Shown: in pieces, positions 2,873 through 24,413 of the stretch
How positions within the stretch are numbered: the first letter of the stretch is position 1
Layout: every line of letters starts with the position of its first letter
DNA from: a virus
DNA: 25,891 nucleotides
Strand: one strand, 5' to 3'
Virus record (IMG/VR): IMGVR_UViG_3300028025_001855
Coordinates: 1-25,891 of that record
Notes under the pieces: model-generated
Databases searched by the model: none
Told to the model about the DNA's origin: nothing
The model's input: the letters and a program-made list of their open reading frames with translations, nothing else
Translations under genes and position numbers: made by a program

Positions 2873-5800
2873 ATGGCATTAGTTCTAGCGGATAGAGTAT
2901 TAGAAACAACTGCTGTTGCTGGTACAGGTGATGCCGTACTTCTTGGCGCTCAAACTAACTATCAGCCATTCTCTGTTGTTGGTAACGGCAACACTACTTA
3001 CTACACAATTGTAGACAACACTAACAGCGAGTGGGAAGTAGGTATTGGTACTTACATTACTGCTGGCAACTTGTTACAACGTACAACTGTATTGTCATCA
3101 TCTAACGGTGGCGCATTAGTTTATTTCGGTAGTGGCACAAAGGATGTTTTCCTAGACTTACCTTCAGAGGCTGTATTGCTGTCTGCTGGTGATGTAACAG
3201 GCCCTGCTAGTGCTGTAGCTAATAACTTTGCAGCATTTAACTTGACAACAGGTAAGCTAATTAAAGATAGCGGATATAATTCGTCATCATTTGCTACTGC
3301 TGCTCAAGGTGCTAAAGCTGATACTGCTGTGCAACCAGGCTCACTTGGTACTGCTGCTTACTTAAACGCAGGCTCTGCTAATGGTGTAGCAACACTTGAT
3401 TCAGGTGGCAAAGTGCCTGTAAGTCAAATCCCTGCAATGGGTGACTTAAACTATCAAGGCACATGGAACGCTACAACTAATACGCCTACATTGGTGTCTA
3501 GTTCAGGTACGAAAGGTTATTACTATGTTGTATCTGTTGCTGGTAATACTAATCTTAATGGCATTACTGACTGGAACATTGGCGATTGGGCTGTTTATAA
3601 TGGCTCTGTCTGGCAAAAGATAGACAATACTGACTCTGTTACAAGTGTAAACGGATATACAGGTACTGTTGTACTATCGTACACAGACGTTGGCGCTTTC
3701 CCTGCTGCCTCAACAACAGGTTCAGGTAATGTAGTATTGGCTACAGGCGCTACGCAAGCCAGCCCAACTATTAGCGATTATGAAAACTTCACTCCTACAA
3801 CTGCCCCTGCTTATTTAGAGGGTCGTGTTTGGTATGACAGCACAGAGAAAGCTCTTGCTTTTTACAATGACTCATCTGCATTAGCAGTTCATATTAGCCA
3901 AGACTTAATTTTTAAGGTAATTAACAATACAGGTTCAACCATTCCTAATGGCTCACCTGTTTACGTTACAGGAACATCAAGCGGTCAAACATATCCTAAT
4001 GTTGCGTTAGCTAAAGCTGACGTAGCTGCAACATCTTCTGTAATTGGTTTAACTAATGGCGCTATTGCTAATGGTGCTATTGGCTATGTAACATCGCAAG
4101 GTACTATTGACAATGTAAACACAAGTACATTTACAGTAGGACAAGTGCTTTACTTAAGCCCTTACTCTGCTGGTCAATTAATGAACACAATTCCACCTAC
4201 AGGAATTACAGTTCAAGTTGGCGTGGTAACTTTTGTTAATAGCTCTACAGGTCACATTTACGTTAAGCAAACAACTCCATTATCAGTACCTGCAAGCATT
4301 ATTACAGGCACGCTAGGCGTTGACCATGGCGGTACTGGAGCTACAACCTTAACTGGTTACGTTAAAGGCTCTGGCACGTTAGCATTGACAGCAAGCTCAA
4401 CGATTCCTACAACGGATTTGTCAGGCACAATCACTAACGCACAGTTAGCTAATAGCTCAATTACAATTAATGGAACGCCAACATCATTGGGTGGTTCTGC
4501 AAGCGTAGGCACAGTTACTAGCGTAGCGGCAACAGCAGGTACGGGAATTAGCGTATCAGGAAGCCCTATTACATCTAGTGGTACGTTTACTATTACAAAT
4601 ACAGCTCCTGACCAAACAGTAGCATTGACAGCAAGCACAGGTATTAGCGTTACAGGAACTTATCCTAACTTCACTATTACCAATACTTCTCCATCAAGCG
4701 GTGGCACAGTAACTTCTGTTACAGGTACAGCTCCTGTCGTGTCTAGTGGTGGTACAACACCTGCTATCTCTATGGCAGCAGCTAACACATCTACCAATGG
4801 TTATTTGACATCAACTGATTGGAATACGTTTAATAGCAAAGGCTCTGGTACTGTTACTTCAGTATCTGTTGTAAGCGCTAATGGTTTGGCAGGAACTGTA
4901 GCAACATCTACAACTACTCCAGCTATTACTTTATCAACAACCGTCACAGGATTGTTAAAGGGCAATGGAACTGCTATTTCTGCTGCTACATCAGGAACTG
5001 ATTATGCTCCAGCGACATCAGGAACATCTATCTTATATGGTAATGGTTCAGGTGGATTTAGCAATGTAACGGTAGGCTCTGGATTAACATTTAGTGCTGG
5101 CACATTAAGTGCGGCAGGCAGTTCAGGTACAGTAACTTCAGTAGCTGCTGGCAATGGTATGAATTTCACTACTATTACAGGTAGTGGAACAGTAACGCTT
5201 GGCACTCCAAGCACAATTACAGGTTCAACAACTAATAGTGCTTCTGGAACTACGCATACTCATGCTTTAACTGTAACTCCAACTAATGTATCAGACCAAG
5301 CAAATTCAAGCACAGGTTATTTAGGTTTGCCTTCTGGTACAACAGCACAAAGACCTGGAAGTCCTGCTAATGGCTACTCAAGATATAATACAACTTTATC
5401 TGCATTTGAATTTTATAACGGAACTTCATGGATTGGTATAGGTGCTAGCTTTTTATCATACACTTTAACTTATGCTGTTGTTGCTGGTGGCGCTGGCGGT
5501 GCATCAGGTGGTGGCGGTGCAGGTGGATTAATAACTTCATTCGGGTCAGTTACTCCTGGTCAAGTTTATACGGTAACCATTGGTGCTGGCGGTACAGGTG
5601 GAACTGGCTCAACAAGCGGTGCGGCTGCAACAAATGGTGGAAATTCATCATTAATTGGGAGTGGAATTTCTGCAACTGCAATAGGTGGTGGCGCTGGCGG
5701 TAGAACAGGTAATGCTGGTGATTTAAGTGGATATTCAGGTGGTTCAGGTGGTGGCGGTGGCGGATATGCTTCTGGAACTACTAATGGCGGTTCAGGAACT

Positions 5801-6265
5801 TCAGGTCAAGGAAATGCTGGTGGTAGCAATGGCGGACAAATTGCTGCACCATATCCAGCAGGTGGTGGTGGTGGTGCTTCTGCCGTTGGTGGAAATGCAA
5901 ATACTATTACAATTTCAGGAAACGGTGGGGCTGGAACAACACTTTCATCTACTTTAGGTAGCGCAACCTATGCTGGTGGTGGTGGTGGCGGCTCTTATGG
6001 AGGAGGTACTGCTGGAACTGGTGGTTCAGGTGGCGGTGGTGCAGGCTCTGGCACTACAACAGGAACTTCTGGAACAGTAAACACAGGCGGTGGTGGTGGC
6101 GGTTCGTATGCTAGTGGTACAGGTGGTGCAGGTGGTTCAGGCGTAGTTATTATTTCAGTTCCTACTGCAAATTATTCAGGCATCACTACAGGAAGCCCTA
6201 CAATTACTACAAGCGGTTCAGACACTATTATTAAATTTACAGCTAGTGGGAGTTATACATCGTGA
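2873..6265 (+). CDS. Large tail fibre / adhesin with glycine-rich C-terminal region
   Basis: This 1130-residue protein is a modular receptor-binding fibre. Residues 1-105 form an N-terminal module (ADRVLETT, then NTTYYTIVD) that I know from many phage fibre proteins and that probably docks to the virion. About 190-275 is a small domain with GTWNATTNTPTL and GDWAVYNGSVWQKID. About 310-465 is a beta domain, followed by GVDHGGTGATTLTGYVKGSG. From about 545 to 790 there are irregular repeats beginning GTVTSV, with DNA-level echoes such as agcattgacagcaagc at two places. A GTTAQRPGSP module lies near 820. Residues about 868-1098 are strongly glycine-rich, with GGGGG runs, resembling polyglycine sandwich adhesins such as T-even gp38. 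It is placed directly after the portal gene. Confidence 0.85.
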   Translation: MALVLADRVLETTAVAGTGDAVLLGAQTNYQPFSVVGNGNTTYYTIVDNTNSEWEVGIGTYITAGNLLQRTTVLSSSNGGALVYFGSGTKDVFLDLPSEAVLLSAGDVTGPASAVANNFAAFNLTTGKLIKDSGYNSSSFATAAQGAKADTAVQPGSLGTAAYLNAGSANGVATLDSGGKVPVSQIPAMGDLNYQGTWNATTNTPTLVSSSGTKGYYYVVSVAGNTNLNGITDWNIGDWAVYNGSVWQKIDNTDSVTSVNGYTGTVVLSYTDVGAFPAASTTGSGNVVLATGATQASPTISDYENFTPTTAPAYLEGRVWYDSTEKALAFYNDSSALAVHISQDLIFKVINNTGSTIPNGSPVYVTGTSSGQTYPNVALAKADVAATSSVIGLTNGAIANGAIGYVTSQGTIDNVNTSTFTVGQVLYLSPYSAGQLMNTIPPTGITVQVGVVTFVNSSTGHIYVKQTTPLSVPASIITGTLGVDHGGTGATTLTGYVKGSGTLALTASSTIPTTDLSGTITNAQLANSSITINGTPTSLGGSASVGTVTSVAATAGTGISVSGSPITSSGTFTITNTAPDQTVALTASTGISVTGTYPNFTITNTSPSSGGTVTSVTGTAPVVSSGGTTPAISMAAANTSTNGYLTSTDWNTFNSKGSGTVTSVSVVSANGLAGTVATSTTTPAITLSTTVTGLLKGNGTAISAATSGTDYAPATSGTSILYGNGSGGFSNVTVGSGLTFSAGTLSAAGSSGTVTSVAAGNGMNFTTITGSGTVTLGTPSTITGSTTNSASGTTHTHALTVTPTNVSDQANSSTGYLGLPSGTTAQRPGSPANGYSRYNTTLSAFEFYNGTSWIGIGASFLSYTLTYAVVAGGAGGASGGGGAGGLITSFGSVTPGQVYTVTIGAGGTGGTGSTSGAAATNGGNSSLIGSGISATAIGGGAGGRTGNAGDLSGYSGGSGGGGGGYASGTTNGGSGTSGQGNAGGSNGGQIAAPYPAGGGGGASAVGGNANTITISGNGGAGTTLSSTLGSATYAGGGGGGSYGGGTAGTGGSGGGGAGSGTTTGTSGTVNTGGGGGGSYASGTGGAGGSGVVIISVPTANYSGITTGSPTITTSGSDTIIKFTASGSYTS

Positions 6266-23490: not shown

Positions 23491-23703
23491 TTTTTACAGG
23501 CGGTTAAGCCGACATCAGAGGATATAGCAAGTAACGAGTTTTTCGGCTTTCTGCGTTACATGTAACAGCTATCAAATCTGCGCCAACTTCATGTTAATCA
23601 CTAGACGCAATCCATGATTGCCCCGATGTGTAAAAAGTGCATTTATGTTAATATGTTTACTACAATATACATTCCGTATATTTTGTAAATTAGGAGATAC
23701 ATT
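23491..23703 (+). promoter_or_regulatory. Structured leader upstream of pqqA
   Basis: There is no convincing gene in this 213-base gap, but several foldable elements. ATAGC (23524-23528) pairs with GCTAT (23568-23572), enclosing GTAACGAG (23531-23538) paired with CT-g-CGTTAC (23551-23559). The string GTTACATGTAAC (23555-23566) is a perfect palindrome. GCAATC (23607-23612) and GATTGC (23616-23621) make a tight hairpin. AATATAC and GTATATT (23664-23670 and 23676-23682) form a perfect dyad just before the pqqA ribosome binding site. A weak -10, TACAAT (23661-23666), overlaps this dyad. Regulation of the following gene by protein or RNA structure is inferred. Confidence 0.45.
23664..23682 (+). 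promoter_or_regulatory. Operator-like inverted repeat before pqqA
   Basis: AATATAC-N5-GTATATT is a perfect 7-base inverted repeat centred 31 bases before the pqqA ATG. It overlaps the best -10 candidate, TACAAT. It could be a repressor site or a short RNA hairpin. Confidence 0.4.
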
Positions 23704-23775
23704 ATGTGGACTAAACCAGCAGCTACAGAGTTAAGATTCGGATTTGAGTGTACGATGTATATTTGCAATCGTTAA
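23704..23775 (+). CDS. pqqA: PqqA, precursor peptide of pyrroloquinoline quinone
   Basis: The reading frame encodes 23 residues, the same length as Klebsiella-type PqqA. It begins MWTKPA, continues through E9-L-R, and contains the family core RFGFECTMY (residues 11-19), ending ICNR. In PqqA the Glu and Tyr of E-x-x-x-Y supply all carbon and nitrogen atoms of PQQ. Here they are E15 and Y19, at the expected positions. PqqD presents the peptide and the radical SAM enzyme PqqE cross-links Glu to Tyr. No other pqq gene is in the window, so host PqqB-E would be needed. TAGGAGA seven bases before the ATG is a strong ribosome binding site. Unusual residues are Cys16 and Cys21, where I recall Val and Ser/Ala. 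The gene lies between the lysis genes and an endonuclease. Confidence 0.92.
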   Translation: MWTKPAATELRFGFECTMYICNR

Positions 23776-23789
23776 GATTGTGCTATAGT
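23762..23789 (+). promoter_or_regulatory. Probable extended -10 promoter inside the end of pqqA
   Basis: TGC-TATAGT (23781-23789) is a good extended -10 (TATAAT with one change), with TTTGCA 16 bases further upstream as a weak -35 (23762-23767). It shares TGTGCTA with the other two promoter candidates. The predicted start near 23796 coincides with the first base of the following hairpin. Confidence 0.5.
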
Positions 23790-23795
23790 AATAAA

Positions 23796-23859
23796 GCTAC
23801 CAGAGTGATTTAGCGGTCACGTTCGGCTTCAGTAACCGACTGGTAGCGCCTTAATTTTT
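23796..23859 (+). ncRNA. Putative small structured RNA / terminator after pqqA
   Basis: GCTACCAG (23796-23803) pairs perfectly with CTGGTAGC (23840-23847). The 36 bases between them can fold into GTGA/TCAC and TCGG/CCGA hairpins, giving a three-way junction, or alternatively CGGTCAC with GTAACCG. The stem is followed by GCC and then TTAATTTTT. Together with the promoter just upstream, a transcript of roughly 60 nt that starts and ends with this structure is predicted. It may instead simply terminate pqqA transcription. It is not a tRNA: no anticodon arm or CCA-type acceptor is visible. Confidence 0.4.
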
Positions 23860-23886
23860 ACTGACCTTAAACTGAAAGGTATCAAA

Positions 23887-24312
23887 ATGCCACACAAAGA
23901 CCCAGAAGTAAAAAAAGCCTATCTTAAAGCTTATCATAAAGAATGGTATGCAAAAAACAAAGAAAAAAGATTAGCTCAAATAGAAGAATATCAATTAACA
24001 AAATCTGATGATTGGAGAAAGTTAATTGGTCAAAAGCATCATTTAAGAACTAGATATAATTTAACTCCATCAGAATATAACGCAATGGCAAAGCAACAAG
24101 ACTACAAATGCGCTATATGCAATATTGATGTTTCTGAAAATATAAGAGCTAATAAACAAATAGCATTAAGTGTTGACCATAATCATGCAACAGGTGAATT
24201 AAGAGAATTGCTTTGTATGAAATGCAATTATGGTTTGGGTTATTTTAAAGATAATGCAGATGTTTTAGAAAAAGCATCTAAATATATATTAAAACACACC
24301 CGTTATGAATAA
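23887..24312 (+). CDS. Endonuclease VII-like HNH nuclease
   Basis: This 141-residue protein is highly basic at its N-terminus (helical, Lys-rich, residues 1-55). It then has the His-Me finger core of the recombination endonuclease VII family: zinc ligands C75-x2-C78 and C110-x2-C113, the LSVDHNHATGELRELLCMKCN block with D97/H98 and H100, and N114. In T4 the related gp49 resolves branched DNA before packaging; many small phage copies act as free-standing homing enzymes. A-AAGG lies upstream of ATG 23887. Its last ten bases overlap a small gene on the opposite strand, so the two transcripts converge here. Confidence 0.88.
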   Translation: MPHKDPEVKKAYLKAYHKEWYAKNKEKRLAQIEEYQLTKSDDWRKLIGQKHHLRTRYNLTPSEYNAMAKQQDYKCAICNIDVSENIRANKQIALSVDHNHATGELRELLCMKCNYGLGYFKDNADVLEKASKYILKHTRYE

Positions 24313-24413
24313 GTAAGTTTTATATAGACGTAAGCTAGTGTCGATGCGGTACAGAATCCTAATGCAAAGGCACTAGCGTAACAAATTGCGTATTCTATAA
24401 TAGCACTAATCAT
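24303..24413 (-). CDS. Tiny membrane protein at the end of the - strand operon
   Basis: This 36-residue protein starts at 24413 with ATGA overlap on the preceding gene's stop. It has a hydrophobic, Cys/Ala-rich stretch (AIIEYAICYASAFALGFCTA) and then a short tail YVYIKLTYS, consistent with one membrane helix. Tight coupling to the upstream gene is the main support for translation. Its end overlaps the convergent endonuclease gene by ten bases. A 9-pair inverted repeat, GCTAGTGTC/GGCACTAGC (24334-24342 and 24369-24377), lies inside it. Function unknown. Confidence 0.55.
   Translation of the reverse strand: MISAIIEYAICYASAFALGFCTASTLAYVYIKLTYS

Follow-up and report, generated by a model that had tools for sequence, protein, structure and literature searches.

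A 23-codon pqqA gene in phages of Methylophilaceae, usually accompanied by a version of a candidate host PQQ operator

Introduction

Auxiliary metabolic genes of phages are exemplified by cyanophage psbA, which encodes a full photosystem protein and thereby a fast-consumed part of a host pathway. For the cofactor PQQ, the closest described case is the Lake Baikal virus population VP_266, a T4-like metagenomic phage reported to carry pqqA (PMC7678222, 2020), and on the bacterial side Methylophilaceae are known to combine 3-12 pqqA genes with one pqqBCDE (PMC4109929). Viral pqqA, pqqD and pqqE have in addition been listed by annotation from reservoir sediment (PMC13188868, 2026), where the entries concerned are grouped with phosphate solubilisation and appear to receive no further analysis.

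Here we analyse a 25,891-base virus record (IMG/VR IMGVR_UViG_3300028025_001855; its whole length is referred to below as the window), in which a 23-codon frame had been proposed to encode the PQQ precursor peptide. We compare this locus with public phage records, with viral contigs and with the genomes of candidate hosts.

Results

The coding part of the locus consists of two features:

23692-23696, plus strand: ribosome binding site AGGAG, 7 nt 5' of the ATG
23704-23775, plus strand: pqqA, 23 codons, encoding the PQQ precursor peptide MWTKPAATELRFGFECTMYICNR (PF08042, TIGR02107)

The initial annotation had taken this frame for pqqA from its length, its layout and its strong ribosome binding site, and had named a PqqA profile search as one way to check it. 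That search returned significant matches above both curated cut-offs, with E=5.6e-9 and 36.2 bits against Pfam PqqA PF08042 (cut-off 21.1) and E=1.1e-9 and 37.9 bits against the NCBIfam equivalog TIGR02107 (cut-off 20), and the frame is the sole PqqA match across the whole record. The E-x3-Y of PqqA is present in the 23-residue peptide as E15 and Y19, while residue 16 is C, where nearly all other PqqA have V, alongside L10 and I20. The ribosome binding site, likewise as annotated, has counterparts before 202 of 210 viral pqqA copies, compared with 5% in shuffles. It is close to certain that 23704-23775 encodes a PqqA of the Methylophilaceae type on a phage.

Selection was evaluated on 149 distinct viral sequences among the matches listed, in codons 12-23, which are free of search-pattern constraint. 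E15 and Y19 are invariant in all 149, and pN/pS in these free codons is 0.076, as opposed to 2.6 and 6.0 in the other two frames; a value of 0.16, obtained from a set in which the search patterns dictated part of the sequence, is superseded by this one. The frame and its two core residues, whose loss in related phages would have spoken against the annotation, are thus both kept, and the substitution pattern indicates that viral pqqA is under strong purifying selection. Viral PqqA peptides are often exactly those of hosts, and five viral/host gene pairs are even identical in nucleotide sequence; we excluded these pairs as evidence of exchange because a bin and a viral contig can be mistaken for each other. 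The same data bear on a decoy or brake, in which the phage peptide would occupy PqqD/PqqE or feed back on the regulator and so lower host PQQ. An excess of substrate analogue can titrate enzymes, and C16 of the window peptide adjoins the cross-linked E15, but a decoy needs neither cross-linked residue, yet both are invariant, and peptides so often identical to those of hosts are hard to reconcile with it; we regard this explanation as improbable.

The record itself is a virus contig with genes for terminase, portal, major capsid protein, tail, exonuclease and endolysin, and its virus is a podovirus. Its capsid protein reaches at best 54% identity with cultured phages (Stenotrophomonas BUCT555 and Myxococcus Mx8), and megablast of the window DNA against 50,697 phage records gave no close match, so the virus stands outside the lineages of the cultured methylophages. 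Among records with related capsid proteins, many of which are fragments, pqqA is found in 12 of 50, all 12 inside a clade of at least 86% identity, and two of these records hold two copies each.

To map the gene more broadly, the 50,697 public phage records were searched by tblastn with three PqqA queries, one of them from Acinetobacter, and all three retrieved the same 12 records: nine cultured Methylophilales phages (P19250A, Venkman, MEP301, MEP401, MEP402 and four Melnitz), one uncultured podovirus from Manatee Spring, and two mislabelled chromosome contigs. The latter, CAKLQF020000010.1 and CAKLQH020000055.1 ("Acinetobacter phage MD-2021a"), were left out as bacterial; the first was examined, holds a full bacterial pqqABCDE operon and appears chromosomal. 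With the same three queries, no pqqA was found in phages of other named hosts among these records. The cultured carriers span Kyanoviridae, Zobellviridae and P19250A-like phages, and blastn with MEP402 DNA finds pqqA as its sole match in P19250A and Melnitz. The peptide MWTTPAATEMRFGFEVTMYVMNK is named, together with that of the window, as a further phage PqqA. None of the phage records annotates the gene, which in those examined lies either in an unannotated gap or beneath an ORF predicted on the other strand; it goes unmentioned in the published descriptions of these isolates, and PHROGs has no PqqA family. The suspicion that such a gene is widespread and overlooked is thereby borne out: all cultured methylophage records found carry it (nine of nine, counting those that surfaced rather than a full list of the methylophages in the collection), and in none is it annotated.

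IMG/VR was searched by two degenerate-DNA patterns, each with at least 120 matches. Some viral contigs (L010, L019, L024, L030, L031, L034, L081, L085) encode other types of PqqA and have no pqqB; their hosts may be different methylotrophs, or methanotrophs. The gene also occurs on a viral contig of 356 kb that encodes a DnaB-type helicase (L529, G080), which suggests that jumbo phages have it as well.

A chance frame or bacterial contamination might be considered, as 23 codons are few and public phage records leave the frame unannotated. Both are ruled out by the equivalog-level TIGR02107 match, by the selection expressed in pN/pS, and by a tblastn distribution that includes complete cultured phage genomes. 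The structural genes of the window, the cultured carriers and the host signature described below together place a host-type metabolic gene within true phage genomes.

The proposed methylotroph host is supported. The cultured carriers are phages of Methylophilales, and the peptide pattern MWTxPxAxEMR, run against 84,980 species genomes, gave listed matches nearly all titled Methylophilaceae or broader ranks containing them (Methylotenera, Methylophilus, Methylobacillus, Methylovorus, OM43, Methylopumilus). The nearest host peptide among the matches listed differs from that of the window at 2 of 23 residues. Linkage of pqqA to pqqBCDE is common rather than defining; the window gene stands without it, neither PqqE nor PqqB exceeding its cut-off in the searched phage records, and in Methylophilaceae hosts the additional pqqA genes are likewise orphans. 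The initial annotation had also left the enzymes to the host, in agreement with the absence of PqqE matches above cut-off in 49 pqqA-bearing virus records and of PqqB matches in 35, sets that comprise many fragments as well as complete cultured phages. A PQQ alcohol dehydrogenase was detected in one of the 49, a 72-kb contig. Because PqqE and PqqB were not found, and methanol dehydrogenase in a single record only, the phages appear to bring only the consumable substrate. In these Methylophilaceae hosts pqqA is present in 1-12 copies, a multiplicity that fits a limiting precursor.

On that 72-kb contig (L528, G059), which carries viral pqqA, the PQQ alcohol (methanol) dehydrogenase gene lies at 3990-5864, a combination like that of the Lake Baikal virus, and a neighbouring gene matches a DmsA-like phage family.

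Upstream of pqqA in Methylophilaceae lies a palindrome, CTMATGAWWWTCATKAG, common to pqqA and pqqBCDE. A strict pattern of it occurs 19 times in 18 host genomes and not once when reversed as a control. With 14 of these 19 just upstream of pqqA and 3 upstream of pqqBCDE, the palindrome looks like a PQQ-regulon operator, and we offer it as the candidate operator of a regulator of Methylophilaceae PQQ synthesis. The other two (L462 at 2703, L463 at 2701), from two Methylophilaceae genomes, precede a gene for an exported pentapeptide-repeat protein that weakly matches YHS.

A matrix built from 44 host sequences of strictly chosen loci, leaving out the window's own copy (L001), was then applied to 109 viral pqqA upstreams, 55% of which score above the 99th percentile of shuffles (p 8e-49); the share is 52% relative to random windows (p 2e-45) and 57% relative to upstreams of other genes (p 6e-34). 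Five of six annotated phages scored exceed background (Melnitz, Venkman, Manatee, P19250A and MEP301, at 10.9-19.5 bits), the sixth, MEP402, having no site above background with this matrix (-0.5 bits). Hosts carry a second site at +23 bp and a -10 box at +61, and in most viral copies the -10 lies at +38/39 as counted from the site, a spacing derived from 58 viral loci (L464 and L465 are host loci) that would put an activator near -41 relative to the start, in a class II position. From these scores, Methylophilaceae phages seem usually to keep a version of the host pqqA/pqqBCDE operator. In the window, the candidate counterparts are:

23588-23605, plus strand: distal operator-like site TTCATGTTAATCACTAGA, 13.2 bits with the host-trained matrix (p=0.00085 in 20,000 shuffles)
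23611-23628, plus strand: degenerate proximal site TCCATGATTGCCCCGATG, operator-like and 23 bp past the distal one, as in hosts
23649-23654, plus strand: -10-like box TAATAT, 61 nt from the start of the distal site and 38 from the proximal one, matching host and phage spacings
23664-23682, plus strand: inverted repeat AATATAC-ATTCC-GTATATT in the mRNA leader, read from the sequence

Candidates for the site, the second site at +23 and the -10 at +61 thus all occur at these spacings, but both sites are degenerate and the distal one is weaker than most viral copies; it is one of the two best operator-like sites in the record, the other sitting inside a gene. Operator-like sites upstream of most viral pqqA could also be read as a means of drawing off the host PQQ regulator onto replicated phage operators, with the peptide of lesser importance. 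This titration would leave the conserved coding sequence unexplained, the sites were found via their link to pqqA in the first place, and the site is weak in the window and missing in MEP402, so that we consider it very unlikely. Inverted repeats upstream of the gene are enriched in viral copies (37 of 159, with 6.8 expected), as are intrinsic terminators downstream (57 of 154, with 0.8 expected).

The surroundings of the gene comprise four further elements:

23498-23587, plus strand: pseudoknotted element, beside pqqA in the clade
23796-23847, plus strand: two-hairpin stem-loop closed by GCTACCAG/CTGGTAGC, with T-rich sequence after it (fold -19.9 kcal/mol, z=-1.7, which is weak alone)
23887-24312, plus strand: recombination endonuclease VII-type nuclease (Pfam PF02945, E=5.7e-21)
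23604-24317, no strand assigned: block of pqqA, stem-loop and endonuclease, approximate extent from blastn against G002

The predicted stem-loop at 23796-23847 is a possible transcript end. The pseudoknotted element is 87 nt long, sits where late and early genes meet, and folds as an enclosed pseudoknot of 21 pairs present in 13 of 13 sequences, 6 of the pairs with compensatory double changes; it may end transcripts arriving from both sides or represent a new RNA family, and Rfam gave no RNA family match for the flanking structures. Loci of the element were sampled at window 23498-23587 and in L027, L071, L216-L228 and L466-L527. In well-flanked loci sampled by the element, pqqA stands beside it in 31 of 37, and because it is absent from the other 6, of the same clade, the gene is not essential. 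Two copies of pqqA, each with a separate element behind it, are seen in G008 (L231, L232) and G012 (L234, L235), near contig ends where assembly effects are possible. By their arrangement, pqqA and the element behave as if they formed a cassette.

By blastn, a relative with 98% capsid identity (G002) has the same junction without the block of about 0.7 kb that holds pqqA and the endonuclease VII gene in the window. Such a block speaks for a passenger, with pqqA riding to no benefit on other cargo or on a mobile block of the endonuclease VII type. Against this stand the strong purifying selection, the kept operator, and the recurrence of the gene in unrelated phage lineages, mostly with no adjoining nuclease, and we hold the passenger explanation to be unlikely.

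In sequence, the gene forms a small unit of its own, with its ribosome binding site and promoter-like elements. Overall, these data make it quite probable that the window carries a functional pqqA of Methylophilaceae origin that would supply PQQ precursor during infection, and service of the peptide in that capacity is likely. In this model, host polymerase and the host PQQ regulator would transcribe phage pqqA on infection; host PqqD would bind the peptide, host PqqE would cross-link E15 to Y19, and PqqB and PqqC would complete the conversion to PQQ. Because one PqqA is spent per PQQ and the enzymes are catalytic, the precursor would be the part that runs short as host expression falls. Maintained PQQ would keep periplasmic methanol dehydrogenases charged and thus sustain the energy and carbon supply of the infected cell.

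Discussion

Taken across lineages, the evidence inclines us, with some reserve, to a broader reading: Methylophilaceae phages may repeatedly have taken pqqA together with the host PQQ-regulon operator, such that the viral gene is read by the regulator of host cofactor supply, and PQQ precursor may be a near-universal bottleneck of infection, overlooked as a 23-codon gene goes uncalled. If so, phages of globally abundant bacteria, in freshwater and in the sea, converge on one tiny gene that standard annotation misses, cultured isolates included, phage pqqA stays under the host's own cofactor control, and methanol oxidation by infected cells is limited by PqqA supply. Suitable phage-host pairs exist in Venkman and Melnitz on H5P1 and P19250A on IMCC19250.

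The likeness to cyanophage psbA is that the phage supplies what a host energy pathway uses up quickly and leaves the rest to the host; the difference is that psbA provides a full photosystem protein, whereas pqqA provides a 23-residue substrate of cofactor synthesis. The orphan pqqA genes of Methylophilaceae hosts (PMC4109929) are scattered single genes with the same type of peptide and usually the same operator, but they are chromosomal, whereas the phage copy sits between late and early genes. VP_266 shares with the window a phage pqqA, a predicted Methylophilaceae phage and a proposed support of methanol dehydrogenase (PMC7678222), but it is T4-like and was reported with a phage methanol dehydrogenase, whereas the window belongs to an unrelated podovirus clade that is without one. 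The kind itself has thus been reported once (PMC7678222), and, as far as the literature consulted shows, what is new is the breadth, the missing annotation and the common operator: beyond VP_266, pqqA is present in every cultured methylophage record found, unannotated and usually with an operator in common with the host.
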